Shown here: positions 4,734-32,417 of the stretch, piece by piece
Numbering within the stretch: the first letter of the stretch is position 1
Layout of the letters: each line of letters starts with the position of its first letter
Virus record (IMG/VR): IMGVR_UViG_3300022074_000091
Span: 1 to 45,478 of that record
Length of the DNA stretch: 45,478 nt
Reading direction: 5' to 3' (one strand)
DNA from: a virus
The notes under the pieces: model-generated
The model's database searches: none
Told to the model about the DNA's origin: nothing
Seen by the model: the letters and a program-made list of their open reading frames with translations, nothing else
Translations under genes and position numbers: made by a program

Positions 4734-5144
4734 ATGGCGTTTGAAGCAAAAAAAATAAACCCTATAGACTTACAGCCTAGAAAAGCTGTAGGTATTGATT
4801 TACCTTTTAACGGTAAGGGTGTATTTAATTCAACGTTTGAAACAAAAGAAGCTATAAAAGCTAATCTTATTAACTACATACTAACTGGTAAAGGAGAGAG
4901 GTATTTTAACCCTAGCTTTGGTTCCGGTATAAGAAATCTAATTTTTGAGAATATAAATAGAGATAATTTAACAGATCTAGAATTTTTAATTAGAGATGCT
5001 TTAGCTCGATATTTTCCTAAATTAGAAATATTAAACCTTAACTTAGTAGGTGAAGCAGATTCTAACTTGATTAGTTTTTCATTAAACTTTAAGCTAGTCG
5101 ATACACAAGTAGAAGACGAAATAACTATAAATTTTGAACAATAA
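4734..5144 (+). CDS. 25: Baseplate wedge protein, gp25/GpW-like
   Basis: A 136-residue protein matching the gp25-like family in size and sequence: residues 50-75 read ILTGKGERYFNPSFGSGI followed by RNLIFE, the hallmark of gp25 (T4), gpW (P2) and type VI TssE. In T4 gp25 joins the wedge core and is where the sheath starts. The next gene is the J/gp6-like wedge protein, the usual neighbour, and the two genes overlap by one base (TAATG). No Shine-Dalgarno sequence is present. Confidence 0.88.
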   Translation: MAFEAKKINPIDLQPRKAVGIDLPFNGKGVFNSTFETKEAIKANLINYILTGKGERYFNPSFGSGIRNLIFENINRDNLTDLEFLIRDALARYFPKLEILNLNLVGEADSNLISFSLNFKLVDTQVEDEITINFEQ

Positions 5145-6946
5145 TGGCTCAAGATATTAAAATACAATATACAGATAAAGACTTCTCTAGTTTGAGAGGA
5201 CAGTTAGTAGAGTTAGCTAAAAACTACTTTCCTGATTCATATAATGATTTTTCACCTACCTCACCCGGTATGATGTTTGTAGAAATGTCTGCCTATGTAG
5301 GAGATATCTTATCTTTTTATCAAGACTCTCAATTACAGGAAACATTCTTACAGTACGCACAAGATCCTGGTAATTTATATGCTATGGCTTATATGATGGG
5401 ATATAAACCCAGAGTAACCACAGCATCGAACGTAGAAGTTAAAGTAACTCAAAGAGTTGCAGCTTCTGGTTCTAATTACGAACCTAACTATAATCAAGCT
5501 ATAACAGTAGCCGAAAATGGAGTGCTAGCTTCTGGTAACGAAAAGTTTATACTTGATAGTAAAGTTGATTTTTCTTTTTCAAGCTCATATGATCCTACTC
5601 TAGTTACTATATACAGTATAGATGGTAGTGGAAATCCTACTGAATACGAATTAGAAAAAACAGTAAAAGCACATTCTGGAGAAATAGTATCTCAACAATT
5701 TACTGTTGGTAGTGCTAGTAAATTTTTAACTCTTACTATAGATGATAGTAAAATTATAGGAATCTTAGATATTACTGATGGAGATGGCAATAAATATACT
5801 GAAGTGCCTTACTTAGGACAAGATGTTGTATTTACTGAAGCTGTTAATACAGGTAATAACGCAGGAGAAGTACCATACGTACTATCTGCTACAACAGCTA
5901 CTAATAGATTTGTTACAAGATTTAACTCTACTGGACAGCTACTTATACAGTTTGGCGCCGGGATGTCATCAGCAAATGATGAAACCTTTTTACCTGATCC
6001 TACGAAAGTAGGTGGAGGGACTAATCAAGGTATTAGAAGAACAGATTATGCTTATGATCCATCTAACTTTTTATTTAGTTCTGCATACGGTAATGCACCT
6101 TCTAATACTACCTTAACTGTAAGGTACATAAAAGGAGGAGGAGTGTCTTCTAATATTAACTCTAATACTTTAGTTAATCAAGAAGCTATAAATACTGCTG
6201 TTACTGATAATGCTTTCTTAAGTACATTAGATTTTACTAATCCAACAGCAGCTCAAGGGGGTAAAGATGGAGATACCGTAGAAGAAATCAGACAAAACTC
6301 TTTGAGGGCTTTTAATGAGCAGGGTAGAATAGTAACTAAACAAGATTATGCATTTAGAGCTATGACCCTTCCAACTACTTTAGGAGCTATTGCTAAGGCA
6401 TTTGTAACTACTGATGCTGATATACCAACATCTGATTCACAGGTCTATAATCCTCTAGGTGTATGTTTGTACGTATTAGCATATGATATAAATAAAAAAC
6501 TAATTCAATCTAAAGAAGAATTAAAAAATAATTTAAAAGTTTACCTAAGTCAATTTAAATCGTTGACTGATGGTTGTACTATTAAAGATGCTTTTGTTAT
6601 TAATATTGGAGTAAAATTTGAAATTATAACATTACCTAGTTATAACTCTAGAGAAGTTATACTAAAGTGTACTGAAGTATTAAAAGAGCATTTTAATATT
6701 GACAAATGGTCTATTAATCAACCTATAAATCTTTCAACTATATATACTTTATTAGACAGAGTAAAAGGAGTACAGACAGTACAAAATGTAATGATAGAAC
6801 CTAAAGTAGCAGGTAACTACTCTACTTTTAGTTATGATATTAAAGGGGCAACAAAAAACAACATAGTATATCCTTCTTTAGATCCGATGATATTTGAAGT
6901 CAAGTTTCCTAATAGCGATATACAAGGAAGAGTAACAACATTATAA
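5144..6946 (+). CDS. 6: Baseplate wedge protein, gp6/baseplate-J-like
   Basis: A 600-residue protein of the gp6/J family that forms the ring of wedges around the hub. The N-terminal 90 residues are diagnostic: DKDFSSLRGQLVELAKNYFP, then SPGMMFVEMSAYVGDILSFY, a dimer-core region. The middle (150-330) is beta-rich and probably the domain inserted in marine T4-like versions. Residues about 370-600 hold the conserved J-like end (EEIRQNSLRAFNEQGRIVTK, later DRVKGVQTVQNVMIEPK). It directly follows gp25 and is one base ahead of the next baseplate gene. Confidence 0.85.
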   Translation: MAQDIKIQYTDKDFSSLRGQLVELAKNYFPDSYNDFSPTSPGMMFVEMSAYVGDILSFYQDSQLQETFLQYAQDPGNLYAMAYMMGYKPRVTTASNVEVKVTQRVAASGSNYEPNYNQAITVAENGVLASGNEKFILDSKVDFSFSSSYDPTLVTIYSIDGSGNPTEYELEKTVKAHSGEIVSQQFTVGSASKFLTLTIDDSKIIGILDITDGDGNKYTEVPYLGQDVVFTEAVNTGNNAGEVPYVLSATTATNRFVTRFNSTGQLLIQFGAGMSSANDETFLPDPTKVGGGTNQGIRRTDYAYDPSNFLFSSAYGNAPSNTTLTVRYIKGGGVSSNINSNTLVNQEAINTAVTDNAFLSTLDFTNPTAAQGGKDGDTVEEIRQNSLRAFNEQGRIVTKQDYAFRAMTLPTTLGAIAKAFVTTDADIPTSDSQVYNPLGVCLYVLAYDINKKLIQSKEELKNNLKVYLSQFKSLTDGCTIKDAFVINIGVKFEIITLPSYNSREVILKCTEVLKEHFNIDKWSINQPINLSTIYTLLDRVKGVQTVQNVMIEPKVAGNYSTFSYDIKGATKNNIVYPSLDPMIFEVKFPNSDIQGRVTTL

Positions 6947-9096: not shown

Positions 9097-12000
9097 ATGG
9101 CAAATATAACATATACATTAATAGATAGAGATTTTGATTCTATAGAAGATAATGAAAATTACTCTTCCGCAGACTTGCGTCTAATAGATAACTATCAAAT
9201 TAATAAAAATTACGACCCTTCCCAGCATTATATAGAAACACATTTTTATTCTGTGAATAATGAAAAAATATTTTCGTTATACGATTATAATATTTCTTCA
9301 AACGTTGAAACAGATGCTGAAGGTGCTATAACTAATTTTACCTTAGAACCTGAAGAAATTGCAGCTGAGAATGGATTTGTAGGAGTAGATCATAAAATAG
9401 TTTTTCATTTTTTAAATGATTTATATACTTTTGATAATAATAAACAAGAGTTTTATATTCACTCTATCTCTCAAGATAGAAAAGAAGTTCTACTATATAC
9501 TGAAAAATTAGACATTAACAGGTTAATTAATAAGACCGAAGAGATAAAAGAAAATATTTCTTCTCAAACTTACTTTGAAGAGTATTGGTTAAACTGCGGT
9601 AATAATGATCTTTTTATAGTAACTAATGTAGATATATATGAACTTGACGACAAGTATACTATAGCATTAAAACTTTACGAAGAGCTTCCTGATAATATCT
9701 TAGTAAAAAATCAAGTACAGTTAGTTGAAAAAATAAGCGATTCAGTAGTAGTCGAAGTAGAAGTAGATATTGAAGAAGATCCAGTAGTTTATCCAACCTT
9801 AAAAGCTGCTAACTTTAATATAGAATTAGATACAGACGATTCTTCTCCTACAGAGTATTTTAATTATGATGAGCTTTTTAGTTATGCTAATTTAAATTCT
9901 AACAGAGAAATATTTAGTTACCTAAGTGAAAAAAGTGTTGATATAAACATAGATTACTCTGACTATTCTAACTTTATAAATTTTTCATCTGCTCAAGAAA
10001 GACTTAAAAACTTTAAATATAAGGTTCAACTTATACAAACTTATCAAGGAAGCAAAGACCAGCTTAGCAACACCTCACAAGCTTCTGGTAGCGAAGCTAG
10101 ATACGATAGATTAATAAAAGGAGTAATAGATAATTTTGATCATTATGAAAGATACCTTTATTATGAAAGCGGATCTAACGCATGGCCTAAGTCTACAACT
10201 GTCAAACCTCATATAAATTTACATACTACATCATCTGAAGGTATAAGCTGGTATGCAAATCAACTAACTTCTGCGTCTATCTACGATACTTCTAACTACG
10301 ATGTATTAACTAATGCTATACCTTCTTATATAGCAGAAGACACAAAGAATAACAGTGCTATCTTATTCGTTCATATGATAGGTCAACACTTTGATAACCT
10401 ATGGATATACTCTAGAGCTGTTACTGATAAGTATGATAATGACAATAGGCTTAATGTTGGTATATCTAAAGATTTAGTTAGAGACGTACTTAAGAGCTTT
10501 GGAACTAAATTATACAACTCTGCAGAAGGTTCTAACGATTTATTCAATTATTTAATAGCTGATACTTACGACAGTGGAAGCTCAGAAGAAGTAGTAAATA
10601 CTTTTTTACAGGTCCCCGGAATACCTTCGGACGCTCAACCTATTTCTAGAAAAGATTATGAAGGAGAAGTTTATAAAAGGATATACCATAACTTACCTTA
10701 TTTACTTAAAACTAAAGGAACTGAAAGAGGTTTAAGAGCATTAATAAACTGTTTTGGAATTCCTTCTAGTTTTCTTACTGTTAAACAGTACGGAGGAGAT
10801 ATAATAGGTAAATCTAAATTTCTTGGCTTTGCTGAAGAAAAATCCTCAGTAGAAAAAATAAGAGTAGAAACTAGAGCAAGCGGGTCTGTTGGTAAGGTAC
10901 TAACATCTAATAAATCTATTCAGAAAAAAGAAAATGATAGAATAAAAGATATCCATAGATTAGAAGTTGGTTTTTCACCGGCTGATTTAATTAACGATTA
11001 CATTAAAACTCAACTTTCATCTACATTTGATATAGATGATTATTTAGGAGATCCTAGAGATTCTAACAAAGGTTCTTATAACGAATTAAATAAGTTTACA
11101 GAAGGTATTTTAATAAACATTGATCGAGTACAACTAAATGATTTTGTAAGATCATTAAAATTTTTCGATAATGTTTTATTCAAAATGATTAAAGACTTTG
11201 TTCCTGCATCCTCAACTCTTGATTCAGGTATAATTATAAAACCTCATGCATTAGATAGGTCGAAAGCAAAAACTCCTGAAATGTCTGGTACGAAGCCTGA
11301 ATATACCGGAAGCATAGACACAGCATTTGTTACAGGATCAGACGGAGGAAGCTACCAAGTAGGTAAAAAGAATTTAAAAAAACTAAAAGATATAGAAGCT
11401 TACTGGCCTCAAAAAGTAGGAGGTATAAGTAACTTTACTTTTCAAGTAGATTTTTCAAACCCTACAACAGCTAACCCTGGAGAAATAGTTGTTAGAGGTA
11501 CTGAATTTTATCATCCAGACGGTACAGTTTATACATTTCCAGATAACCATTTTTACGGTACTATATATACTCCATACGAAGGTACAACCTCAACAGACCT
11601 AGATTTTTATTTAATGTTTACTTCTGAATCAGCTGCTAATAGATTTGGAATAAATAATGGACAAGGAGGTTCAGGTCAATTAGATGCAGCTCATCCTCAT
11701 ATCGTTCCTATAGATTATAGTCCTCATGGACAGAATAGCTGGGTAGTACGAGATAATGTAGGTACTATATCTTCTTCTTTTACACCTTTAGCTAATGATG
11801 TAATTATTGCAGCAGCTACAATGGAAGCTGATACAGACGTATTAAGTTACTTTGTTAACTATACTAAAACTCTAAATACTGTTAAACCAGGAGAAAAAAC
11901 CACGATATACAGAGAAGATATTAGAACTAAATCAGGTTCAGTAATTAAATGGACTGAAGATGAGTCTCCAAAACTAACTGGAGAATTGAGTGGTAGTTAT

Positions 12001-13788
12001 ATAGAAATAACTGACGGAGAACTCAACCCAACTAACTTATTTAAACAAGTAAACGTTCCAAGTTTAAATTACGATATAGTTTTTGTCGATGAAGGCGAAG
12101 ATGCAATATATACAGCATTTCAAATGGATCCTACAGCAGCAAACGATGGAACTGCATCGTGTGCTACTAATAACAGTACTGCTACATACTATCACGACGA
12201 TACCGGATCTTTTCCTAATACAGTAGGAACTTTCATTTACCTCGATATTGCAGGTAACTCTACATTTGGAGGTAATGCAGCTGCTAAATGGTATAAAATG
12301 CCTAATGGCCATAGCATTAGAGTAGGAGGAACAGGACAAGGTGCTGATCAAGGAAAAGTATTAGAAGTAGCAGATTGTAGCAAATTCGACTCTACTGCAC
12401 CAGCTGGATACACAGCAACCTGGAATCTTGGTACTGGAACTGTTATAAACTCAACTAATAAAACAGCAGCAGCATTTTATATATACGATGGTGAATTAGG
12501 TGCATCATATCACGCTACAGCATCTATAGGGAGTGATAAAGTTAACGCTACAGGAACAATTACAAACGCTACTACTCAATCAGCTACTATAGACGTTTCT
12601 TCTATACCAGACGGTTCAAATGTTTTACTAGATGTATTCTTAAAAGATGCTAATAATAATGCTGGTTCATTTGCTACTAATAAAGGAGGTGTAACAGCTA
12701 CAGATACTAATACTTTAACTGCAAGTTTATTAGATACTTCAGTACCTAACTTAAGCAGTGTAGAATTTACTAACAGTACATACTCTATTGGAGAAACTAC
12801 AAACTCTACGGGTACTTTGTATGTTAAAGTTTCTGGAGTACCTAATAATGAAAGAGGAACTATAAACTTAACTTTACAGAGCACAGGAGGAGGAACTCCT
12901 TATTCAACTGCTATAGCATTTAATAACTTAAACACACATACAGCAACCGCTACTTTAGCAATAACTTATTTTGCTCACGGCTTACCTAACGGTACAGTTT
13001 CAGTAACTGCACAAGCTGTAGATCAAGCAGGTAACACCGGAAATCAGGTTACAGATTCATTGGTAATGAACGTACAAACAGGTCTAATATCCGGAGGTAC
13101 AGCTAAATCCTCATCATCAGGGTTTGTGTACCTTGGCGTAAGTACAACACCTCAATCGTTAAGTTGGAATATAACTAAAAATCAAACCTGGGTTACTTTA
13201 ACCAATGGTACAGGTACAGGTAATGGTTCATTTACATTATATTTTGGAAACAACAGTTCTACGTCCTCTAGATCAGTTCAGCTATTTTTAAAGACAGGAA
13301 ATACAATACTAGATACACATATTATTACTCAAAATGGAACAACATCAAGTGGAGGTGGTGGAGGTTGTGTCGCACCTAATGTTATGATATTAATGGCAGA
13401 CGGAACTACTAAAAAAGCAGGTTTATTAGCAGTAGGAGATGAAATAAGAACTCAACAAGAGACTTCTTTAGAATGGGTTAATGCTAGAGTTAATGAAAAA
13501 AAATCTCTACATAGCACTAGAATAAAAGTATTTGCAGGAGATAAAGAAATTGTAGTTTCACCAAATCATAGATTTTATGTAGATAATAAAGATGAATATA
13601 TTGCAGCTAATTTATTAGAAGAAGGAGATATACTATCAGGAAATGAATTTATAAAGTACGAAGACTATAGCGATGGTGAGGTATTAAAGATATCTGTAGA
13701 AAATGCATTTACTTATGTATCTAATGATATTTTATCTCACAATGTTAAATTTATGCAAGATCAACAGAACTCATCAAATGTTCAATAA
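9097..13788 (+). CDS. Giant baseplate/tail protein with Ig-like, BACON-like and C-terminal Hint domains
   Basis: A 1563-residue multidomain protein. Residues 1-520 are probably baseplate-binding. Residues 525-570 (NLPYLLKTKGTERGLRALIN, then CFGIPSSF) are a conserved stretch of a large tail protein in marine T4-like phages. Residues about 740-1330 are beta-sandwich repeats, including Ig-like segments. Residues about 1332-1414 look like a BACON domain (WNITKNQTWVTLTNG, GNGSFTLYFGNNSS, a closing ITQNG). A Gly5 linker then leads to a Hint domain, Cys1424-Asn1549, with block A (ADGTTKK...VGDEI), block B SPNH, and a terminal Ser-His-Asn. Only 14 residues follow, starting with Val, so protein splicing is unlikely. 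Confidence 0.75.
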   Translation: MANITYTLIDRDFDSIEDNENYSSADLRLIDNYQINKNYDPSQHYIETHFYSVNNEKIFSLYDYNISSNVETDAEGAITNFTLEPEEIAAENGFVGVDHKIVFHFLNDLYTFDNNKQEFYIHSISQDRKEVLLYTEKLDINRLINKTEEIKENISSQTYFEEYWLNCGNNDLFIVTNVDIYELDDKYTIALKLYEELPDNILVKNQVQLVEKISDSVVVEVEVDIEEDPVVYPTLKAANFNIELDTDDSSPTEYFNYDELFSYANLNSNREIFSYLSEKSVDINIDYSDYSNFINFSSAQERLKNFKYKVQLIQTYQGSKDQLSNTSQASGSEARYDRLIKGVIDNFDHYERYLYYESGSNAWPKSTTVKPHINLHTTSSEGISWYANQLTSASIYDTSNYDVLTNAIPSYIAEDTKNNSAILFVHMIGQHFDNLWIYSRAVTDKYDNDNRLNVGISKDLVRDVLKSFGTKLYNSAEGSNDLFNYLIADTYDSGSSEEVVNTFLQVPGIPSDAQPISRKDYEGEVYKRIYHNLPYLLKTKGTERGLRALINCFGIPSSFLTVKQYGGDIIGKSKFLGFAEEKSSVEKIRVETRASGSVGKVLTSNKSIQKKENDRIKDIHRLEVGFSPADLINDYIKTQLSSTFDIDDYLGDPRDSNKGSYNELNKFTEGILINIDRVQLNDFVRSLKFFDNVLFKMIKDFVPASSTLDSGIIIKPHALDRSKAKTPEMSGTKPEYTGSIDTAFVTGSDGGSYQVGKKNLKKLKDIEAYWPQKVGGISNFTFQVDFSNPTTANPGEIVVRGTEFYHPDGTVYTFPDNHFYGTIYTPYEGTTSTDLDFYLMFTSESAANRFGINNGQGGSGQLDAAHPHIVPIDYSPHGQNSWVVRDNVGTISSSFTPLANDVIIAAATMEADTDVLSYFVNYTKTLNTVKPGEKTTIYREDIRTKSGSVIKWTEDESPKLTGELSGSYIEITDGELNPTNLFKQVNVPSLNYDIVFVDEGEDAIYTAFQMDPTAANDGTASCATNNSTATYYHDDTGSFPNTVGTFIYLDIAGNSTFGGNAAAKWYKMPNGHSIRVGGTGQGADQGKVLEVADCSKFDSTAPAGYTATWNLGTGTVINSTNKTAAAFYIYDGELGASYHATASIGSDKVNATGTITNATTQSATIDVSSIPDGSNVLLDVFLKDANNNAGSFATNKGGVTATDTNTLTASLLDTSVPNLSSVEFTNSTYSIGETTNSTGTLYVKVSGVPNNERGTINLTLQSTGGGTPYSTAIAFNNLNTHTATATLAITYFAHGLPNGTVSVTAQAVDQAGNTGNQVTDSLVMNVQTGLISGGTAKSSSSGFVYLGVSTTPQSLSWNITKNQTWVTLTNGTGTGNGSFTLYFGNNSSTSSRSVQLFLKTGNTILDTHIITQNGTTSSGGGGGCVAPNVMILMADGTTKKAGLLAVGDEIRTQQETSLEWVNARVNEKKSLHSTRIKVFAGDKEIVVSPNHRFYVDNKDEYIAANLLEEGDILSGNEFIKYEDYSDGEVLKISVENAFTYVSNDILSHNVKFMQDQQNSSNVQ
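13366..13743 (+). other. C-terminal Hint (intein/hedgehog-like) domain
   Basis: Encodes Cys1424 to Asn1549 of the giant tail protein (126 residues). All the marks of an autoprocessing Hint fold are present: Cys at position 1 after a Gly5 linker, ADG and VGDEI in block A, Ser-Pro-Asn-His in block B, and His-Asn at the end after VLKISVENAFTYVSND. The residue after Asn is Val, not Cys/Ser/Thr, so it fits bacterial intein-like (BIL) or hedgehog-type cleavage/ligation rather than splicing. Confidence 0.75.
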
Positions 13789-20048: not shown

Positions 20049-23000
20049 ATGGCTATAACTTTTAGAGACGAGAAAGGAGCTCCTCTAACTCATGAGGAAT
20101 TAGATGCTAATTTTAGATCGTTTTTCTTTACTGCTTCATTTAGTGAGAATAATTTATCTCTTCAAAGAAAAGATGGCGTAACGATTAACGTTCCTGTTGG
20201 TGGTCAAGCATTTGCTGACTTCCAAGAAAACGGTGGATCTATTGGAGACGTCTTTATAGCTGATAGTCAAATTACTGGTAGTAGAATGATTATTGACCTA
20301 TTCAATGGTCAATTTTATGATAAAACTAAAGCTCCAAATTCTGCAGGCGGAGGACTAACCTCAGACGAATGGTATATAGACTTCGATCCTGCATCAACAG
20401 CTCCTTATTATGTACACTTCGGACCTAACTTTGCTATTTCTTCTAGCGGGTATATGTTCGCTTCTGGAGCTAGACTTGAAGGAGATGTAACAGCCTCTTC
20501 TGGTTTGATAGCTGGATTTGGCATAACCCCGGACGCTATACACGGTCCTTTAACTTTAGGGACACCTAACTTCTTTATATCAGGAGCAGCGTCTAATACA
20601 GATCATTTTATCTCAGCATCTAATTTTAGTTTAAAAGGTAGTGGTGATATAACAGGATCAGCAGTATTATTTAGCGGTGGTACTATAGCAGGATGGACCA
20701 TTACTAACTCAGAAATACGTAAGTCATCTAATATAGTGTTAGATGCTACGAACGAAAGTATTTCTATTAAGAGTTCTACTTTCGGTAATCAAGGTATTCA
20801 ATTACAACATAATAGTGGAACTCCGAGATTTTATGTAGGAGATGGAGCATCAAGTTTTGCTAAATTTGACGGCACTGATGTAAGTATATCAACTAAGCTA
20901 TTAGAAATATCTGCTTCTAATATAGAGATATCTTCAACACATGCTTCTATGTCATTAGGCGGTGGTAGTGTAAAACTATTAGGAGCTTCTTCAGCTATAG
21001 AAGTTGGTACTACTAACAAATTTAAAATATCAGGAAGCGCTGAAGACGCAATGATAGTTGCAGGAACTAAAACAGGTTTTGCTACTAACGATGCTGGATT
21101 GATATTAGGTATGGATGCAGCTGTTCCTACGCTGGATCTTACCAAGGATGCTAGTAACTACCTAAGGTTCAATACAACAAGTGGTATTGATATTAAAACA
21201 GATACTTTTAAGTTAGATACAACTAATTTTGATATTGATACTTCTACTAAAAGATTAACTATATTTAAACCTTCTGGGCAAGAAATAATTAGATTAGGAG
21301 AAATATCTAATGCCGCAGGAGATTTATTTGGTTTAAAAATATACGATGGTGCAGGCACCGGTTCTAATAATACCATTGCTCAATTCGGTCAGCAAGGTAA
21401 CAAAGTTGGTGGATGGGAAATAACAGGCGATCAAATAAGATCAATTCCTGCTGCCGGCTTTGGAGGTTCTTATGCTGAAGGTGAAACAGGTTTAATAATT
21501 AATTCATCAGGCACTATAGAATCATCTAACTTTGTAACTAATGTTAAAGGTTGGAGAATAGATACTTTAGGAAACGGTTCTGCTGAGTTTGAAAATATGA
21601 GAATACGTGGTACATTAAAAACTACTGTATTCGAAAAAGAAAGTGTTAACGTTGTTGGTGGTCAGCTAATGGTTACTAACGCTTCTACTATACAGCCATT
21701 AAGATCTGCAGAAGGAACTATTATAGCCGGTTCTTCTTCATATGCTGCTAACGCCGTTACTCTTTCTTTAGCTAACGTATCAGGATTTGAAACAGGAGAA
21801 ATATTAAAAGTAAAAACTGTAGATGATACAGGATTCGGAGTAGAGTATTTATACGTTTCTGGTACGAAAAGATATTCAGAGGACAATGCTTTAAGTTACA
21901 ATACAGGTTCAATAGACCCTGATGGATTAGCAGGAGAAATTTATGTAGAGAGAGGTTTTGGAGGAACTCCTGCTGTTTCTTCATCTATCACTACTGTATC
22001 CTCGAGTGTAGATACGGCATCAGAAACTACTATCGAAGTAGTTAGTTCAACCGGATTGAACTTACAAGATATTATCAAAATTGATAATGAAAGATTAAAA
22101 GTTACTGCTATTAATAATAAAGTATTAACAGTTATTAGAGGTTATCACGATAGTGTTGCCGATTCACATACTGTTGGAGATACTATATTTAAAATAGATA
22201 CCGATAAAGAATTTTTAAGCGGCCTCGTATCCGCAGCACGTCCTCTAAACGAAGGTCAAGTAATATTATCAACAGGTGTATTTAATCCAGCTACAGATAT
22301 ATCTTCCGGGTATATAATGATGAATGCTAATCCTAGAGATATTTCTACTCCTTATATGGACATAGTAGAAAGAACAGGATCAGGGGTTTATGACTTAGAA
22401 TTAAGATCTAGATTAGGAGACCTATCAGGATTATCCTCAGGGTACTTATACGGTAATAATGAACCAGGATTTGGTTTATATACTGAAAATGGATTTTTTA
22501 AAGGGGCTATTACTGCCGATACAGGTTCTATTGCAGGTATACTTCATGTAGCAACTACAGCAGGAGGATTAGAAACAGGTCAAAAAATATCTATAGGTAG
22601 AAAAGTATCAGGCACAACAGGAGCTTTCAACGACGGTATATTTGTAAATAATAATAACTACTGGTATACAGACGGTGCTTGGAAAGTAGGAGGATCAGAT
22701 AACTTTATATCTCTAGATAATTTTACAGACGGAAACTTAGTTATTAGAACAGAAACGTTTACGTTAGATACTCCTACGTTTATGATTTCTAGTTCCTTAA
22801 ATAATGGAACTTTAACTGCAGGTACTAACGCAAGTTCTATAACAACAACATCAGGAACAGGAGTTTATATAGATGGAAATGGTAAATTTAGAGTAGGAAC
22901 AGCAACTAGCGGTAACAACTATATTTACTGGGACGGTAGTACTTTAAATATCAAAGGTGCTATAGATATAACAGGCGGTACCGGTGCAACTACTGCTGAG

Positions 23001-26000
23001 TTGAATGCTGCAACAGCTTCTCTATCAGGATCTTTAGCATCAGAAATATCGTCATCAGATGCTTCTTTATCTAGCTCTTTAGCTACCACAGCTGATACTT
23101 TAGATGCAAAAATATTTACTGACAGTTCAGGTAGAGCTGTTAGACCTCCAACTGCTTCTGCTCAAGGTCTTTATATGACCTCTACTAATTTAGGTTTCTA
23201 TAAAGGTGGGGAATGGGCAACTTATATGGATAACGAAGGAGACTTTTTCCTTACAGGTTCAGCCGGTAATAAACTTGCTTGGGATTCTTCAGCGGGTAGT
23301 TTAGAAATAAAAGGTAGTATAAATATTACTGGAGGTAATGCCGCAACTCAAACCTTTGCTTCTCAAAGTGCAGCAGCAGCTGAATCAGCTTCTTTAGCTG
23401 CGATAACAGATGTATCTTCATCATTAAGTTCATCGATTAGTTCTTCTACCGCTACTTTACAAGACGGATTAGATTCTGCTAATAACGTAATATCAGGTAA
23501 ATCAGCTATATTTAGATCACCAAATCCACCAACAGCAACAGCTATCGGCGATATGTGGATTGAATCAGATGAAGGAAATAGAGTAAGAATTTGGAACGGA
23601 TCAACTTGGGCAATAACTCCTGATGGTACTTATGACCAAACAGTTCTAATTAATACTACATCTGCTTCTTTATCATCATCAGTAGCTTTAGATATATTTA
23701 CAGACTCTACAGGTAAGTTAGTACAAACTCCTGATACTTCTTCAGGTACAGCCGAAGGATTATTTTTAGGAGATACTAATTTAGGATTCTATTCTGGTAG
23801 TCAGTGGAGAACCTATATGGCTAATAACGGTAACTTCTTTTTAACTGGTAGTGATAGTCAATTCTTATCTTGGGATGGAGGACAATTAACTATTAAAGGA
23901 TCTATTAATATAGTGTCCGGTAATGCAGCAACTACATCTTCCGTAGCATCAGCACAAACAGCAGCACAGAACTTTGCTGCTACTGCTGCAGCTAATGCTG
24001 TAACAAGTGGAAGTAATGCAGCATCTACTGCCGAAGCTAATGCTTTAGCAGCTACAAATGCAGCAACTGCCTCTTTATCTAGTTCCCTTTCTGCTTCTAT
24101 AGCAGCAACAGATGCAACAGCACTATCAGTTTCAGCTTCTCATGCTGCAACAGCTAATTCATTTAACGGAGTACTATCAGGAAAAAATTCAGTATTTAGA
24201 CAAAACGATGCTCCATCTACATCAGGACGTACACAAGGAGATATGTGGATAGATGATAATGATGCAAATAGACTTTATATTTTTAGCGGTTCAACATGGG
24301 TTACAGCTTCAGATGCTACCTTTGATCAAACAGCTTTAATTAGCTCTACATCTGCTTCATTCGCTTTAGATACCTTTACAGACAGTACCGGTAGAATAGT
24401 ATCTACTCCTAGTACAACACAAGCCGGTCTATACTTAGGAGATTCAGCTTTAGGTTACTATAACGGTAGTAAGTTTGCTACTTTTATGTCTAATAACGGA
24501 AACTTCTTTTTAACTGGAAGCGGTACTAATAAGTTAGCATGGGATGGTGGTACCTTAACTATAGCAGGAGATATAAACATATTAGGAGGAAATGCTGCTA
24601 CGACAGCTTCAGTTGATGCAGCAACAGGTTCTCTATCAGCATCATTAGCAACAGGTATATCAGCTTCAGTTGCAGAAACCTCTGCTTCAGCAGCATCAGC
24701 ACAGCAAACAGCAACCGCCGCTTCAGGAACAGCAACACAAGCTAGTCAAAACGCAAGTACAGCTCTAACTAGAACAGTTGATAATACCGGTAAGATTACT
24801 TTTAACCCTACACCAAGTGGAACGGGATTATTTATGAGTGCAAATAACTTAGGTTATTACGATACTAATAAATGGAAAGCTTATTTATCTTCTTCTGGAG
24901 AATTTTTCTTAACAGGAAGTGGAAATAGTGGATTAGTATGGGACGGAACAGATTTATCAATTGATGGTAGTATAATAGCTAGAGACGGTTCTATCGGAGG
25001 TATTGAATTAGATGCTACTAAAATGTATATAGGTTCAGGTAACCATAATAATGCAGATACTAAATTCTATACTGACAATACGGGTAAGTTTTCTCTTGGT
25101 AATGCATTATCATGGGATGGAACAACCTTAACTATATCCGGTAGTGTTACCGTAACTAATGAAAATGATTTTGCTTCTCAAGCAGAATTACAAACTGTTA
25201 TTAATGCTACTTCATCGTTAGCTAATCCTGATTCTTATTCATTTGGTCCTTCAGGCCAACCAGGATTTGCTTTAGCTGCTATTACAGGTAGTATAACAGG
25301 AGCAGGATTATTCTTTGATTCAGAAAAATTAGGATTCCATAGTGGTAACAACGGTACGTTCTTAACCTATATGGATAAAGAGGGTAACTTCTACTTAAGC
25401 GGAAGTGGAGATCAAGGTCTAGCATGGAATGGAAGTAGATTAATTATTGGTAATAAAGGATTAGGTCCTTCATTAACTTATCAATTTAGCGGCTCATTAG
25501 ATAGTTCTACTTTCGTATCAGAAAACGGAACAGGAGCGTTAGCAACAGCAACTCTAACTACACCGGTATTAGGAAATAGATTCAATAATAATAACGATGC
25601 ACACGATGCAGGGTTCCACTCAGATGCAATTTTTGCCAGAAGTGACTCTCCTATATTTGAATTTGATATAGTAGCAGGTTCTACGAATCCACGTACTGCA
25701 ATTGGTTTATTTAGAGATACACCAAGTAACTTCGGAAGAGGTCAAATGTCTCATGCCGTAGTAATGGATAATGGTCAGTTTAGTATTTTTGAAAAGAAAG
25801 CAAGTGATTCATTTGGTGTTGAAATAAGAACTCAGCAACAGTTAATGGGTACTACAAATGCTCAATGGACTGACGATACAGATTTCTCAGATAACCAACA
25901 ATTTAGAATTAGAATTAGATTATTACCTACAGGAGCTAGATATACAGTATTTAAAGACGGTAATTTTATAACACCGTTATTTGTATACGATTCTATAACT

Positions 26001-29000
26001 AACGGCGTAACAGAAGCATTTGTAAGACCAGGAGCTAGTTTCTTTTATTCATCAACTTCTGCACAAGTACTTTTCCAAGCAATGGCTGGAGGTCATAGTT
26101 TAGGTAATACTACTAAGATTGCTGGTGATATGATTCAAACAGGACTTATTAAGTCTAATAATCATTCAGGTAATACTAACGGTAATGCATTTACTTCAGC
26201 AGGTACAGCTATTGATTTAGATGGTGGAGCATTTACTTCAACACATTTTAGAATAACTAATTATGGTGCAGCAGTATTTAAAGGATCGCTAGACGCTGCG
26301 ACTGGTAGATTTGACGGTTCGTTACAAATAGGCTCGGGTGATGATATATTTATGGCATCTCCTAATATAGGTATACATTTAGGAAATGCATCATTTAATT
26401 CAGCTCCTTTCAGTGTTACAAAAGGAGGTTTGTTAAAAGCTACTTCAGGTACTATAGGAGGTATTAATTTAGGTACATCTAAAATCTTTATAGGAACTGG
26501 TACTCATAATAATGCAGATACTAAATTCTATGCTGACAATACAGGTAAGTTTTCTCTTGGTGATAAACTATCTTGGGACGGAACTACTTTAAGTATCTCA
26601 GGTAATATTAATATAACAGGGGGTAATGCAGCAACAACAACAGCATTAAATAGTGCAACAGCTTCTTTAAGTTCTTCTATTAATGAATCACAAATTTTAG
26701 CTGCTAACTTAAGCTTAACTAGTAACTTAGAACTTGTAGGTAGATCAGTTAGAAAAATAGCTAATGATAATTCCTGGAATGGTGAAATGAAATCTCTACA
26801 CGGTCAAGCAGGAAGTGCAGAAGTAATATTCAGAGTAACTAATGTTGCATCTAGTAGAAGATTTATGATGGGTCTCAACACTGACCCTTCTACTAATACT
26901 AATTATACAAGTATAGATCATGCCTGGTATATAAATGGTACGACTTCTCAAATTTACCAAAACGGTAATAGCATACAGACATACGATTCAATAAGTAACG
27001 GGGACGTATTTAAGATATGTTATGATGGAGCTACAATAAAATATTACCATAATAATACGCTAAAAAGAACAGAAAGTAATCAAAGTGCTACAACAACCTA
27101 TTACTTAGATTCTTCATTCTTCGATGTAACGAATGACCCTATCTTAGATTGGTTTGATTTTAGCGCAGGAGCAGGTGTTAATGCTAACTTCGATGATGGC
27201 TTTGTTGGAGGATGGACAATTGATTCAGATGCAATCTTCTCTGGTACTAAAAATACTTCAGGATTTAATACCAATGTAGGTATTACTTTAAGTTCTGCAG
27301 GTAGTATACATTCAAAAGGTTTCTTTATCAGTCAATCAGGAGATGCTCAATTTCAAGGGCTAGTACAAGGTTCCGGTATTACTGGTAGTTTGATAGTAGG
27401 TACTAGTATAGTAGGTGGTAATATAGAAGGTGGGAATGTAATAGGAGGTAATATAAGTGTCCCTACTGCTGCTGCACCTAAATTCTCGGTAAATAGCGAA
27501 GGTATTATGACAGCAGAGGATGCTGCTATAACAGGTGAAATAACCGCTACTTCAGGTAGAATAGGTGATTGGATAATCGACCAAAGTACTAATGCATTAA
27601 GAGACGACAATAGCGAAATAATTTTTGAACCTAATATACCAGAAATTCAAATGTTTTCTGGTGCTGAGAAAAAAGTAATTATATCTCCATTAGATGAATT
27701 AACTCCTATTGCTGATACTACTACAAATGTTGATATGGGGAGTATACCAAGCTCTGGAGGAAACTGGTCTACTTTAACTTCTACTACTTCGGTATCTAAT
27801 CCAACATACGGAGTTGTAGGAGGTAGTGCCTTATCAGGATTAGCTACGGCATCTATACAAGGCCCAGATGCTTCAAGTAATACTTTTACAGCAGATGCTA
27901 AAGGTACGTTCGAAATTACCTTAGACGTCCCAGCCTTTACAGTTAAAAGACCTTCAGTTTCAGCATCAGGTTCAACTGTTAATCCAACTTATAATGCATC
28001 TTATAATAATCAAACACATGGTTATATTACTCCTGTAAAAGCATTCTTAGGTGCTGATTTATATTTATGTGCTTTCGATTCTTCCAATAATGAAATTGGA
28101 TCAGTAATATTAGGATCAGCATATAAGTTTGGAAACTCAAGCGCTTATACCTACAGTCAAGCATCAGGAACATCAAGTGGTAATAGCTCCGGTGGTTATG
28201 GATCCGGGGGGAGTGGATTTAAAACTCCATTTGACATTATTGAAGCACAACAATCTGTTGAGGAAACTTCTTTAGTTACTTTAGGTAACGGTGATACTAA
28301 ATTAGCTAGAGATTTACAAGAAGGAGATGAATTAAAAGTATGGGATTATACTAAAAACAAATTTGTTACCGATAAAATAAGTAGAGTAAATAAAGCTACC
28401 AGAGCTGAATATTTTGAAGTTGAAGTAGATAATAAAGTAATTAAAGTATCATGTGGTCATGAATTTTGGATTGAAAATGGCGAAGCTTTAAAAGTAGATG
28501 AAGTTAATCCTGGGTTTACTAAAATATTTATCGACACAGGAAACGGAATAGAAAAAAAATTAGTTACTAAAAGAGAATTAGTAAAAGAAGAATTAAATGT
28601 AGTTTCTATAAAAATTCCTCCTCATGTTAATTATATAGCAAATGGAATAATACATCACAATACTGCTGCATTTAGTTGGAACAATAATGTACAATTTGCA
28701 GGTTCTACTGGTACACAATCTAACCAAGCTGCAGAAAACGGCAAAAAAGTTCTTCTGACTATATCGGAAAGCGGAACTATAAAACTGAGATACAAATGGC
28801 TTTTAAAATCTTCTGCTGCTAGAAACCATACAACTAATGCTTCAGGTATTACTTCTTATACGACTTCTAACTTTAGCGTAAGTAACCAATCTCAGACTTT
28901 TGATTCAGTTGGTTCATTTGATACTCAAGTACAGGTTAAATTGCCTACTAACTTCGTAGAATTAAAAGCCGGGGGATTACAAGTAGTTTCAGGTGCAGAC

Positions 29001-29534
29001 AAATATATTAAAGCTGTAAGACAAGATGCAGGTATAACAGGTAAACAAACTATATTCCAGGTTAAAGGTGGAAACCTATTAGCTGATGATTTATTACCTA
29101 ATACAAACAGTACTAGCACATCTACAGGATTCGATCTCGGAGCTAACGGTAGTAGGTGGAGAAATCTTATAGTATATAGAATTTTTGCTAGAGATAATAT
29201 TACTGCATTTACAACATCTACTTCTTCTGATATAAGGTTGAAAGAAAATATAAGACCTATTACAGGAGCATTAGATAAAGTATTAAACTTACAAGGAGTA
29301 TCATTTGATTGGAAAGATAAAGAAAAAGGTAGTTCCATAGGATTTATTGCACAAGATTTTGAAAAGCAACTTCCTGAATTAACTTATACTGATACTACTA
29401 ATAATTTAGATGATGATATAAATGATGTAAAAACTATCGATTATTCTGCAACGGTAGCGGTACTTACTGAAGCTATAAAAGAACTAACAGCTAAAGTAAA
29501 CGAGCTAGAAAAGAAGTTAGAATCTAAAAACTAA
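20049..29534 (+). CDS. Giant tail fibre with probable mini-intein and S74 chaperone domain
   Basis: A 3161-residue fibre. Residues 1-30 (ITFRDEKGAPLTHEELDANF) match the attachment domain of the short fibre. The shaft runs to about 2700 with at least four imperfect repeats at 1023-1650 and two lectin-like beta modules (about 1808-2020 and 2218-2378). A Hint domain, Ser2736-Asn2871, ends in His-His-Asn and is followed by Thr, so splicing is plausible. The final ~100 residues (SSDIRLKENIRPITG, then GFIAQDFEKQLPE and a coiled-coil end) are a Peptidase S74 intramolecular chaperone, which normally cuts itself off after trimerisation. If both modules act, the mature fibre loses about 240 residues. 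Confidence 0.82.
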   Translation: MAITFRDEKGAPLTHEELDANFRSFFFTASFSENNLSLQRKDGVTINVPVGGQAFADFQENGGSIGDVFIADSQITGSRMIIDLFNGQFYDKTKAPNSAGGGLTSDEWYIDFDPASTAPYYVHFGPNFAISSSGYMFASGARLEGDVTASSGLIAGFGITPDAIHGPLTLGTPNFFISGAASNTDHFISASNFSLKGSGDITGSAVLFSGGTIAGWTITNSEIRKSSNIVLDATNESISIKSSTFGNQGIQLQHNSGTPRFYVGDGASSFAKFDGTDVSISTKLLEISASNIEISSTHASMSLGGGSVKLLGASSAIEVGTTNKFKISGSAEDAMIVAGTKTGFATNDAGLILGMDAAVPTLDLTKDASNYLRFNTTSGIDIKTDTFKLDTTNFDIDTSTKRLTIFKPSGQEIIRLGEISNAAGDLFGLKIYDGAGTGSNNTIAQFGQQGNKVGGWEITGDQIRSIPAAGFGGSYAEGETGLIINSSGTIESSNFVTNVKGWRIDTLGNGSAEFENMRIRGTLKTTVFEKESVNVVGGQLMVTNASTIQPLRSAEGTIIAGSSSYAANAVTLSLANVSGFETGEILKVKTVDDTGFGVEYLYVSGTKRYSEDNALSYNTGSIDPDGLAGEIYVERGFGGTPAVSSSITTVSSSVDTASETTIEVVSSTGLNLQDIIKIDNERLKVTAINNKVLTVIRGYHDSVADSHTVGDTIFKIDTDKEFLSGLVSAARPLNEGQVILSTGVFNPATDISSGYIMMNANPRDISTPYMDIVERTGSGVYDLELRSRLGDLSGLSSGYLYGNNEPGFGLYTENGFFKGAITADTGSIAGILHVATTAGGLETGQKISIGRKVSGTTGAFNDGIFVNNNNYWYTDGAWKVGGSDNFISLDNFTDGNLVIRTETFTLDTPTFMISSSLNNGTLTAGTNASSITTTSGTGVYIDGNGKFRVGTATSGNNYIYWDGSTLNIKGAIDITGGTGATTAELNAATASLSGSLASEISSSDASLSSSLATTADTLDAKIFTDSSGRAVRPPTASAQGLYMTSTNLGFYKGGEWATYMDNEGDFFLTGSAGNKLAWDSSAGSLEIKGSINITGGNAATQTFASQSAAAAESASLAAITDVSSSLSSSISSSTATLQDGLDSANNVISGKSAIFRSPNPPTATAIGDMWIESDEGNRVRIWNGSTWAITPDGTYDQTVLINTTSASLSSSVALDIFTDSTGKLVQTPDTSSGTAEGLFLGDTNLGFYSGSQWRTYMANNGNFFLTGSDSQFLSWDGGQLTIKGSINIVSGNAATTSSVASAQTAAQNFAATAAANAVTSGSNAASTAEANALAATNAATASLSSSLSASIAATDATALSVSASHAATANSFNGVLSGKNSVFRQNDAPSTSGRTQGDMWIDDNDANRLYIFSGSTWVTASDATFDQTALISSTSASFALDTFTDSTGRIVSTPSTTQAGLYLGDSALGYYNGSKFATFMSNNGNFFLTGSGTNKLAWDGGTLTIAGDINILGGNAATTASVDAATGSLSASLATGISASVAETSASAASAQQTATAASGTATQASQNASTALTRTVDNTGKITFNPTPSGTGLFMSANNLGYYDTNKWKAYLSSSGEFFLTGSGNSGLVWDGTDLSIDGSIIARDGSIGGIELDATKMYIGSGNHNNADTKFYTDNTGKFSLGNALSWDGTTLTISGSVTVTNENDFASQAELQTVINATSSLANPDSYSFGPSGQPGFALAAITGSITGAGLFFDSEKLGFHSGNNGTFLTYMDKEGNFYLSGSGDQGLAWNGSRLIIGNKGLGPSLTYQFSGSLDSSTFVSENGTGALATATLTTPVLGNRFNNNNDAHDAGFHSDAIFARSDSPIFEFDIVAGSTNPRTAIGLFRDTPSNFGRGQMSHAVVMDNGQFSIFEKKASDSFGVEIRTQQQLMGTTNAQWTDDTDFSDNQQFRIRIRLLPTGARYTVFKDGNFITPLFVYDSITNGVTEAFVRPGASFFYSSTSAQVLFQAMAGGHSLGNTTKIAGDMIQTGLIKSNNHSGNTNGNAFTSAGTAIDLDGGAFTSTHFRITNYGAAVFKGSLDAATGRFDGSLQIGSGDDIFMASPNIGIHLGNASFNSAPFSVTKGGLLKATSGTIGGINLGTSKIFIGTGTHNNADTKFYADNTGKFSLGDKLSWDGTTLSISGNINITGGNAATTTALNSATASLSSSINESQILAANLSLTSNLELVGRSVRKIANDNSWNGEMKSLHGQAGSAEVIFRVTNVASSRRFMMGLNTDPSTNTNYTSIDHAWYINGTTSQIYQNGNSIQTYDSISNGDVFKICYDGATIKYYHNNTLKRTESNQSATTTYYLDSSFFDVTNDPILDWFDFSAGAGVNANFDDGFVGGWTIDSDAIFSGTKNTSGFNTNVGITLSSAGSIHSKGFFISQSGDAQFQGLVQGSGITGSLIVGTSIVGGNIEGGNVIGGNISVPTAAAPKFSVNSEGIMTAEDAAITGEITATSGRIGDWIIDQSTNALRDDNSEIIFEPNIPEIQMFSGAEKKVIISPLDELTPIADTTTNVDMGSIPSSGGNWSTLTSTTSVSNPTYGVVGGSALSGLATASIQGPDASSNTFTADAKGTFEITLDVPAFTVKRPSVSASGSTVNPTYNASYNNQTHGYITPVKAFLGADLYLCAFDSSNNEIGSVILGSAYKFGNSSAYTYSQASGTSSGNSSGGYGSGGSGFKTPFDIIEAQQSVEETSLVTLGNGDTKLARDLQEGDELKVWDYTKNKFVTDKISRVNKATRAEYFEVEVDNKVIKVSCGHEFWIENGEALKVDEVNPGFTKIFIDTGNGIEKKLVTKRELVKEELNVVSIKIPPHVNYIANGIIHHNTAAFSWNNNVQFAGSTGTQSNQAAENGKKVLLTISESGTIKLRYKWLLKSSAARNHTTNASGITSYTTSNFSVSNQSQTFDSVGSFDTQVQVKLPTNFVELKAGGLQVVSGADKYIKAVRQDAGITGKQTIFQVKGGNLLADDLLPNTNSTSTSTGFDLGANGSRWRNLIVYRIFARDNITAFTTSTSSDIRLKENIRPITGALDKVLNLQGVSFDWKDKEKGSSIGFIAQDFEKQLPELTYTDTTNNLDDDINDVKTIDYSATVAVLTEAIKELTAKVNELEKKLESKN
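23115..25000 (+). repeat. Four imperfect shaft repeats in the giant fibre
   Basis: Protein-level units begin at 23115, 23697, 24375 and about 24771. Each unit runs FTDS-G-x-x, then GL-x-x-x-x-x-LG-[FY]-Y, [AT]-[TF]-M-x-x-[EN]-G-x-FFLTGS, then W-D-G and NAAT. Units are separated by Ala/Ser-rich coiled-coil segments. Spacing varies (582, 678, about 396 bases), so the repeats duplicated and diverged rather than expanding recently. Confidence 0.7.
25044..25100 (+). repeat. 57-base near-identical repeat, copy 1
   Basis: Matches 26504-26560 at 55 of 57 bases, encoding HNNADTKFYxDNTGKFSLG in the giant fibre. This is far more similar than the surrounding repeats, so it reflects recent duplication or gene conversion. 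Confidence 0.75.
26504..26560 (+). repeat. 57-base near-identical repeat, copy 2
   Basis: Second copy of the 25044-25100 element, differing at two bases, one of which changes Thr to Ala. Flanking sequence on both sides is related but more diverged. Confidence 0.75.
28254..28661 (+). other. Probable mini-intein (Hint domain) in the giant fibre
   Basis: Encodes Ser2736 to Asn2871 (136 residues). Block A has LGNGDTKLARDLQEGDEL, block B is Ser-Cys-Gly-His, and the end is VVSIKIPPHVNYIANGIIHH followed by Asn, then Thr. Ser1, the block B His, His-Asn and a +1 Thr nucleophile together meet the needs of splicing. There is no endonuclease domain. A Ser/Gly-rich linker lies just upstream, as in the other two Hint proteins here. 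Confidence 0.72.
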
Positions 29535-29539
29535 CTACT

Positions 29540-30235
29540 ATGGCATTACAAACATCAGGAGCGATTTCTTTAGACGATATACACGATGAAGCAGGAGGCA
29601 CTTCAGGAACTCAATGCTCTATAAATGATTCTGATATTAGAGGTTTAGATGAAGCATCAGGTAAAACTATTAATAATACTGCAGACACAGAGATTGATTT
29701 TGATGATTTTTACGGAGCTGAAATTCCAATAACTAGTGGCAATGGCGGTTCATCAGGAGGTGGATGCTTAGTTTTCGGTACTTTAATTAGTATGGCAGAC
29801 GGTACAAAAAAAGCTATAGAAAATATAGTAGCAGGAGATGAAGTTGTATCTTATAATATAGATGGTTTAGGTACTGAAGAAGAATGGGTAAATTGGTTTA
29901 GTAATAACCTTTCAGGCACTTTAAGTACTTCAACAGTAATTGAAAACAGATTAGCTACATATCATCACTACTACTTAATTAACAATCTTATCAAAGCTAC
30001 TTGGGAGCAACCATTCTTGATCAATAGTAATAATATACGGTTTACTTTAACAGAAGATTTAAGAGTAGGAGAATTAATTTTTAGCAAAGATGGAGAATGG
30101 ATAGAAATAACTAGTATAGAAAGAATAGAAGAAAGTATACAAACTGGAGTACTAGATGTAGAAGATGTAGATACTTATTTTGCTGAAGGTTTTTTAACTC
30201 ATAATGTTGAAGAAGATTTAAAACAAAAAGAATAA
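29540..30235 (+). CDS. Short tail protein with C-terminal degenerate Hint domain
   Basis: A 231-residue protein. The N-terminal 65 residues (SGAISLDDIHDEAGG, then IDFDDFYGAE) form a minor tail protein module shared with the gene at 31857. After a Gly/Ser linker, Cys76 to Asn222 is a Hint domain: FGTLISMADGTKKAIENIVA and GDEV in block A, and a closing DTYFAEGFLTHN. In block B the usual Thr-x-x-His reads Thr-Trp-Glu-Gln, so the His needed for the N-terminal acyl shift is missing. The residue after Asn is Val and only nine residues follow. It starts five bases after the giant fibre's stop. Confidence 0.72.
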   Translation: MALQTSGAISLDDIHDEAGGTSGTQCSINDSDIRGLDEASGKTINNTADTEIDFDDFYGAEIPITSGNGGSSGGGCLVFGTLISMADGTKKAIENIVAGDEVVSYNIDGLGTEEEWVNWFSNNLSGTLSTSTVIENRLATYHHYYLINNLIKATWEQPFLINSNNIRFTLTEDLRVGELIFSKDGEWIEITSIERIEESIQTGVLDVEDVDTYFAEGFLTHNVEEDLKQKE

Positions 30236-30275: not shown

Positions 30276-30755
30276 ATGGTTACAATACCAGGTTGGACAT
30301 ATAAATCATATTACGTAACTGATATAGATGATATGCCTAAAGGTACGTATGGTTTCATTTATGAAACTAAACATAAACCTACAGGTAAAAAATACATCGG
30401 TAAAAAAGTTCTTTTCTTCGAACGTAATAAAAGATTAGGTAAAAAAGCTTTAGCAGCATTAAAAGAAGAAAGAAAAGCAAAAGGTATAGGAGGAAGAGTA
30501 CCTCTTAAACAGAAAGTTATTACCGAATCTGATTGGAAAGATTACTACGGATCTCATAAAGACATTTTAAAATTACTTAAGGAAGGTGATCCAATGGACT
30601 TTGAAAGAAGAATCTTATGTTACGTTCCTAATAAAAAGCTATTAACATATTTTGAATGTAAATACCTATTTATAAATGAAGTACTAGAGCAAGATGACGT
30701 TTATATTAACGATAATGTTCTAGGAAAATTTTATAGAAAAGATTTTATTAAATGA
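30276..30755 (+). CDS. GIY-YIG-like nuclease, free-standing phage type
   Basis: A 159-residue protein. GFIY (26-29) and KYIG (39-42) form the GIY-YIG signature. Later motifs (SDWKDYYGSHKDILKLLKEG, FERRILC, YFECKYLFINEVL) match a family of small GIY-YIG-like proteins of T4-like and cyanophages that includes Seg-type homing and repair nucleases. A catalytic Arg is plausible but not certain. It heads a module behind a host-type promoter and overlaps the next gene by 4 bases (ATGA). Host DNA cutting, homing and repair are all possible roles. Confidence 0.68.
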   Translation: MVTIPGWTYKSYYVTDIDDMPKGTYGFIYETKHKPTGKKYIGKKVLFFERNKRLGKKALAALKEERKAKGIGGRVPLKQKVITESDWKDYYGSHKDILKLLKEGDPMDFERRILCYVPNKKLLTYFECKYLFINEVLEQDDVYINDNVLGKFYRKDFIK

Positions 30756-31856: not shown

Positions 31857-32417
31857 ATGGCAGTACCGGGATTAGGAGCATTATCTTTAAGAGGAATAAG
31901 GAGAGAGATTGGTAATAATAACTACTCTGCCTTAACAGCCTATAGTAACATTAGTTTACAAAATATGTCAACAGGTGGTAACGGAACTATTAATACTGCT
32001 AATAGTTTTTCTAACAGACCTGATGGAATTGCTCCTCATTCAATGAGTGAATTTTACAGCTACGACCATGATAAAACCTCAGTAACTACACCTACAGTAG
32101 CTACAGGAACTGTATCATTATCAAGCGGTATTTTATCAATGGTAGGATTTGTAAGTAACACCGGAGGGGCTACTGTAACTGCAAGAGGACATGTTGCTTC
32201 TTCTACTACTCAAACACCAACAATAAGTTCAAACAACTTTAAAGAAACACACCCTACAGGAGGTACTGGGTCATATACAACTTCTAGATCTACCAATTCT
32301 ATTATTACTGCACCTAGTGGGACTACTTACTATGTTCGAGCTTTCGCTACAAACAGTCAAGGAACTTCATACGGTTCAACAAGATCTATTTTGGTAACAT
32401 CTCAAGGTCAGATATAA
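31857..32417 (+). CDS. Minor tail protein with FN3-like domain
   Basis: A 186-residue protein. The N-terminal 60 residues (GLGALSLRGIRREIGNNNYS, then MSEFYSY) belong to the same GAISL-type module as the gene at 29540. Residues about 75-186 resemble an FN3-like beta-sandwich whose closing strand (TTYYVRAFATNSQGTSYGST) is a signature of Bacteroidetes surface proteins. It probably decorates the tail or fibre base; the Bacteroidetes-style domain supports the host guess. It lies 12 bases after the preceding stop and 5 before the next gene. Confidence 0.65.
   Translation: MAVPGLGALSLRGIRREIGNNNYSALTAYSNISLQNMSTGGNGTINTANSFSNRPDGIAPHSMSEFYSYDHDKTSVTTPTVATGTVSLSSGILSMVGFVSNTGGATVTARGHVASSTTQTPTISSNNFKETHPTGGTGSYTTSRSTNSIITAPSGTTYYVRAFATNSQGTSYGSTRSILVTSQGQI

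Follow-up and report, generated by a model that had tools for sequence, protein, structure and literature searches.

A putative A-type BIL-like Hint domain at the C-terminus of a marine phage tail protein as a candidate self-processing cap

A 1563-residue protein encoded by a marine phage ends in a Hint domain that is followed by only a few residues, which raises the question of what such a domain does at the very end of a phage tail protein. The DNA analysed is an IMG/VR virus record of 45,478 bases, and this whole stretch is referred to as the window. The initial annotation of the locus had described a Gly5 linker, Cys1424, a terminal His-Asn, Val as the next residue and 14 residues left, and the translation agrees with it at each of these points (Gly5 at residues 1419-1423, His1548-Asn1549, Val1550). 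The good blocks A and B that it mentioned were also recovered, block A reading 'CVAPNVMILMADG', block B 'VVSPNHRFY' and the end of the domain 'DILSHN'. The features of the carrier are as follows.

9097..13788, + strand: carrier ORF, 1563 aa, tail/baseplate region; N-terminal part (1-753) conserved, middle variable, C-terminal Hint as candidate cap
13132..13338, + strand: BACON domain, aa 1346-1414, immediately before the linker; Pfam BACON E 0.0008, below the cut-off
13351..13365, + strand: Gly5 linker, aa 1419-1423, unconserved across orthologues
13366..13743, + strand: C-terminal Hint, aa 1424-1549, predicted to be A-type BIL-like; Cys1424 at position 1, block B His1491, terminal His1548-Asn1549
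13744..13785, + strand: 14-residue tail VKFMQDQQNSSNVQ, beginning with Val1550 and followed by the stop; conserved Lys1551 at +2 (13747-13749)

The carrier can be regarded as a baseplate or tail protein because of gene order (gp25 at 4734-5144, a gp6-like wedge at 5144-6946). This role had been assigned in the initial annotation. Searches of residues 1-753 against PHROGs and PDB profiles returned no named family, and a mediocre structure model of the N-terminal part (pLDDT 67) gave no Foldseek match at E < 0.03. The BACON domain scores above the Pfam cut-off in the orthologue at locus L007.

Pfam and NCBIfam searches with the carrier as a single sequence gave weak matches, Intein_splicing and Hint_2 of Pfam both being matched under their curated cut-offs. 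Iterated HMM searches with the carrier Hint found close relatives, and the profile of these relatives matched, among PDB chains, BIL2 of Tetrahymena (1.8e-16), the C. thermocellum BIL (1.4e-10) and the gp41-1 intein (4.1e-9). The AlphaFold2 model of carrier residues 1340-1563 had a mean pLDDT of 89.2; order was poor in the tail (positions 214-224 of the model, not resolved there) and in part of the linker. The model matched BIL2 with a Foldseek value of 4.4e-10 and a VIA-align Z of 20.2 (rmsd 1.7 A over 133 residues). The model also matched inteins and hedgehog structures; by profile, Foldseek and VIA-align alike, the closest solved structure was BIL2 of Tetrahymena BUBL1 (PDB 6Y75, 6TMM). BIL2 belongs to a eukaryotic ubiquitin-like protein, while no ubiquitin-like domain was seen in the phage carrier, and the placement of a Lys after the domain differs. 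Based on the relatives' profile and the model, the Hint fold of the carrier C-terminus is well supported, and these matches to BIL2 together with the HMM relatives show that the domain is not a chance match.

Several known types of Hint domain were compared with it. The predicted fold, together with a Cys or Ser at position 1 and a block B His that are invariant in a 40-sequence alignment, places it in the Hint superfamily. A-type BIL domains were reportedly described by Amitai, Dassa and Pietrokovski. Their signature consists of Cys1, the block B His, a terminal His-Asn and the lack of a +1 nucleophile, according to the accessible parts of PMC7664689, PMC7765530 and PMC4031507. The carrier Hint has His1548-Asn1549 at its end and Val1550 in place of Cys, Ser or Thr at +1, and it shares with the C. 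thermocellum BIL (PDB 2LWY; VIA-align Z 18.9) the fold, Cys1, the terminal His-Asn and the lack of a +1 nucleophile. What sets the carrier Hint and its relatives apart from A-type BILs is that phage tail proteins bear them, that the domain mostly closes the protein but for 2-14 residues, and that a Lys is conserved at +2. Class 1 mini-inteins such as gp41-1 and Ssp DnaB share the fold and blocks A, B and G, but they carry Cys, Ser or Thr at +1 and lie inside conserved enzymes, whereas the carrier has Val at this position, just 14 residues left and no host protein that would be restored. Hedgehog domains lack the His-Asn and are followed by a sterol-recognition region, in contrast to the His-Asn and 14-residue tail found here. 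On sequence and model, the C-terminal domain is thus best described as an A-type BIL-like domain, and the earlier assignment to the BIL type, lacking a +1 nucleophile while retaining Cys1, the block B His and His-Asn, was upheld.

Two more Hints, which had been missed before, were found in the window.

28254..28661, + strand: second Hint, inside a 3161-aa tail fibre (20049-29534); Ser at position 1, HHN, +1 Thr
29226..29381, + strand: S74 chaperone (Peptidase_S74), in the 3161-aa fibre, downstream of its Hint
29765..30205, + strand: third Hint, of PT-HINT type, at the C-terminus of a 231-aa protein (29540-30235)

A Gly/Ser-rich stretch precedes the fibre Hint, and the segment after it leads to the S74 chaperone; this copy is possibly a mini-intein that splices. 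Both of its flanks are common only to loci L167, L168 and L313, all three of which carry the Hint (with Val at +1 in L313), and a fibre orthologue without the Hint, sought as a test of splicing, was not found among these flank-sharing loci. The third Hint has a GGG linker, Cys1, THN, Val at +1, a 9-residue tail and a block B His that is not clear. It is the only domain of the window to pass the cut-off of PT-HINT (PF07591), with 31.8 bits in comparison to 27.7, while the domain at 13366-13788 does not pass it. The third Hint is in this respect like the pre-toxin HINT of polymorphic toxins; unlike these, the window's two C-terminal Hints carry no C-terminal cargo and are followed by 9-14 residues. 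A sister phage has all three Hints, since locus L004 and locus L168, the latter with two of them, share one contig. Directly downstream of the 231-aa protein lies a SegE-like GIY-YIG endonuclease gene (30276-30755; Pfam 1.2e-23), and in Erwinia phage Yoloswag an HNH gene is close to the tail Hint gene. A 186-aa protein at 31857-32417 has no Hint, and the layout of its start resembles by eye that of the 231-aa protein. A Zeta-toxin-like AAA kinase gene (36075-37016; Pfam 7.5e-11) overlaps the preceding ORF at its start.

The distribution of the domain was followed among orthologues of the carrier. A whole-carrier scan, whose patterns avoid the Hint apart from one placed in the tail of the query itself, yielded 373 stretches. 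The top 80 of these, from 79 loci, were retained and pooled with other retrievals for a survey of bit scores against residues 1-753, which counted only ORFs that do not run off contigs. The results showed that complete orthologues with at least 748 bits all carried a C-terminal Hint, while those with 626 bits or less, in the same pooled loci, had none; four orthologues at about 650 bits (L151-L154) carried a different, PT-HINT-like Hint. The orthologue in Flavobacterium phage immuto was also without the domain. The Hint is not essential to the carrier family, because the more distant orthologues lack it. In one orthologue (L007:14663-15061), the protein runs 133 residues beyond the His-Asn, where a Gly-rich linker is followed by another domain.

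In comparison to its sister L004, the window showed 6 synonymous and 0 non-synonymous codon differences in the Hint, 13 synonymous and 12 non-synonymous differences in the adjoining BACON domain, and 0 synonymous and 4 non-synonymous differences in the tail. These counts indicate that the Hint is under purifying selection, next to a fast-changing BACON domain. For 27 Hint-bearing orthologues (351 pairs), the mean identity was 57% in the N-terminal part and 45% in the Hint, the 250 aa upstream of the Hint averaging 28%, and the divergence of the Hint followed that of the N-terminal part (Spearman 0.85). Based on the codon differences and the regional identities, a variable adhesin region appears to be closed by a conserved cap.

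The conserved end of the domain extends two residues past the His-Asn. The loci of the whole-carrier scan hold 16 distinct Hints, of which 15 are on the carrier protein and all 15 end in HN-x-Lys, and the remaining one (L030), a divergent copy in a separate ORF, has neither HN nor Lys. Several orthologue tails end exactly at the +2 Lys (NK, GK, TK, IK). The alignment of 40 hand-chosen Hint sequences shows no exception at Cys1, the block B His, TY and HN, and at least 90% Lys at +2. Over all loci, 124 distinct Hint sequences formed 51 clusters, with clustering on the last 45 residues and with matches of E > 0.01 or short of the last 6 positions excluded. The 29 clusters of C-terminal Hints had Cys1 in 29, HN in 28, Lys at +2 in 21, Lys at +1 in 3 and Cys, Ser or Thr at +1 in 2. 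For the 12 internal clusters, the +1 residue was Lys in 8, Arg in 2 and Cys, Ser or Thr in 1, while the 10 clusters formed by C-terminal halves of inteins, which the same HMM retrieved, had Cys, Ser or Thr at +1 in all 10 and Lys in none. Lys at +1 or +2 was thus found in 32/41 tail-Hint clusters in comparison to 0/10 intein clusters, and a +1 nucleophile in 3/41 in comparison to 10/10, the latter being the pattern expected for BILs. In Fisher tests that treat clusters as independent, p is about 7e-6 for the Lys contrast and about 2e-8 for that of the +1 nucleophile. At the remaining tail positions, from +3 to +14, Lys made up 4/267 residues, in a count that excluded matches short of the last 6 model positions or beginning after position 8.

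Many HN-bearing loci had been retrieved by patterns containing HN or SH, and the HN counts are therefore inflated outside the whole-carrier scan and one further retrieval set; Lys was absent from those patterns. In that further set, Lys at +1 was found in 14/16 distinct Hints, these being internal copies of the L231 type and the other two being the types of the window's fibre and its 231-aa protein. A small and weak control for a general property of bacterial PT-HINTs, covering 118 Sphingomonadales genomes, held a PT-HINT match in 5 (6 loci), and a simple motif read the end in 4/6 of these loci as +1 Cys (3) or Gly-Lys (1). Many toxin HINTs end in HN-Lys-Cys, which would weaken the uniqueness of the Lys. 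Judging by these sequence comparisons, the conserved feature is His-Asn-x-Lys rather than oligo-Gly; the initial interpretation was right about the type of Hint and overlooked the Lys at +2, the His-Asn kept even before a two-residue tail, the two further Hints of the window and the unrelated tail proteins that carry the same end.

Taken together, the carrier Hint is probably, though by no means certainly, an A-type BIL-like cap that sits on a phage tail adhesin and removes itself by autoprocessing during assembly. From the conserved residues and the predicted fold, we infer its catalysis, its timing and the fate of the end as follows. Since Cys1, the block B His and His-Asn are retained, a thioester at Gly1423-Cys1424 is the expected first step, in which Cys1424 would attack the Gly1423 carbonyl with the assistance of His1491 of block B. 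Asn1549 would then cyclise with the help of His1548 and free the short Val-Lys tail. Water or an amine would resolve the thioester thereafter, the simplest candidate being an amine of the released tail. Type A BILs mostly cleave, and splicing is possible through attack of the freed amine on the thioester, as stated in the available part of PMC4031507. Having lost the Hint, the mature tail protein would end in its flexible linker, to which the x-Lys tail might be added, so that the Hint would act as a disposable C-terminal cap in the synthesis or assembly of exposed tail-tip proteins. C-terminal cleavage appears to matter because the His-Asn is strictly kept even with two residues after it, and this points to Asn cyclisation and not just to hedgehog-like N-terminal cleavage. 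What counts against the cap is that, where the tail is two residues long, its removal by cyclisation has no obvious use. The block F His is replaced by Phe in the carrier Hint ('AFTY', in comparison to 'AHTY' in most distant relatives), which could weaken Asn cyclisation in the window's copy. The Lys at +1 or +2 may help catalysis by its charge or serve as an acceptor.

The initial annotation had placed the point of the device in an activated Gly5 end that is passed to another virion or host molecule. The residues that would form the thioester are indeed intact, and a Gly-rich linker, counted as 4 or more Gly among the 15 residues that precede Cys, was found in 22/29 C-terminal clusters in comparison to 2/12 internal clusters. 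However, the residues before Cys across carrier orthologues are GGGGG, QNAL, YQST, QTNLS, QDEL or QAGQN, so that Gly5 varies within one orthologous family and is absent from many members, Gly-rich linkers are ordinary tethers, and no acceptor partner was identified. These linker sequences rule out oligo-Gly as a conserved element. With no conserved acyl donor at this position, Gly5 is a linker and is best read as a tether. The carrier might be joined covalently to another virion or host molecule, by analogy with the isopeptide bonds described for BIL2; transfer by way of Gly5 is very unlikely. An ordinary or decayed selfish intein seems still harder to credit and can be considered extremely unlikely: the fold is shared, the fibre copy with Ser1 and +1 Thr may splice normally and the SegE-like gene adjoins the third Hint, but the carrier Hint has neither a +1 nucleophile nor a homing endonuclease inside, lies C-terminally throughout its family with the one exception of L007, and is present in every complete close orthologue and not sporadically. 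The orthologue distribution, the +1 residues and the purifying selection thus disfavour it. The Hint fold might also be retained as a non-catalytic module, for example for receptor binding or stabilisation, as would suit the exposed end of an adhesin-like protein; this is unlikely, as the catalytic positions are the invariant ones, and identity elsewhere in the domain falls to about 37% between distant relatives.

The conserved Lys suggests another outcome, in which the Cys1 thioester would be attacked by the side-chain amine of the +2 (or +1) Lys, either of the same chain or of an adjacent subunit, leaving an isopeptide end or cross-link. The contrast between tail-Hint and intein clusters and the scarcity of Lys further along the tails are in its favour, as are internal copies of the L231 type, which have Lys at +1 and would lose their C-terminal domain unless it were ligated. 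The top structural match, BIL2, is reported to form isopeptide bonds, with a C-extein lysine described in the accessible portion of PMC8616854. On the other hand, Met-Gln follows the domain in the BIL2 construct, so its acceptor Lys is not at +2. Arg stands in for Lys at +1 in the two internal clusters noted above, which fits a role of charge better than one as nucleophile, and L151-L154, the 231-aa protein and Phage NCTB have no Lys at +1 or +2. Ligation directed by the Lys is considered unlikely. Covalent finishing of virions, with the conserved Lys in place of the intein +1 nucleophile and the tail end rejoined or cross-linked by an isopeptide, would be a similarly doubtful proposition; if true, such finishing of unrelated phage tail-tip proteins would need no separate enzyme or energy source. 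If the domain acts as inferred, the many small BILs with a conserved lysine would be material for tests of lysine-directed ligation.

The proposed self-removing cap also bears on tail proteins other than the carrier. The same end, consisting of linker, Hint and HN-[ILV]-K, was found on J-like tail proteins (Phage-tail_3; tblastn to relatives of the central tail fibre J; PHROG 5616 tail fibre) and on tail proteins of PHROG 376 and PHROG 2048, with no Gly linker in the PHROG 2048 copy (L107). Locus L107 has two capped tail proteins on a single contig. This end also occurs in bacterial genomes of the Sphingomonas group, including Sphingomonas desiccabilis (L253) and Stakelama pacifica (L254), and in one faecal phage, and Erwinia jumbo phages have a C-terminal Hint with Thr at +1. 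The occurrence on unrelated tail families suggests that the cap may be a common way of finishing phage tail tips. Peptidase_S74 is a self-removed C-terminal end of tail fibres whose fold and chemistry are unlike those of Hint, and such chaperone ends can be likened in role to the candidate cap, with homology excluded. If the inferred action is true, several unrelated kinds of tail protein would be finished by a common self-processing step that goes largely unnoticed in current annotation, and the virion C-termini of capped tail proteins would differ from the gene sequence, which would matter to the structure determination and engineering of tail fibres. In the databases, most carriers with an annotation are called hypothetical or tail protein, and one Erwinia jumbo phage record reads 'putative phage tail protein, contains intein domain'. 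In the open literature searched, with subscription papers and preprints outside its scope, Hint or BIL domains were nowhere described as capping the C-termini of tail proteins.

Two other arrangements were observed. A 579-aa protein (L231:10296-12032) has an internal Hint with Lys at +1 and belongs to a family present in many contigs fetched through S74 fibres; a search for its homologues in isolate phages found none. At L160:4627-6978, tandem Hints lie 7 residues apart in one ORF, and the second of them ends in HN-Lys-stop.
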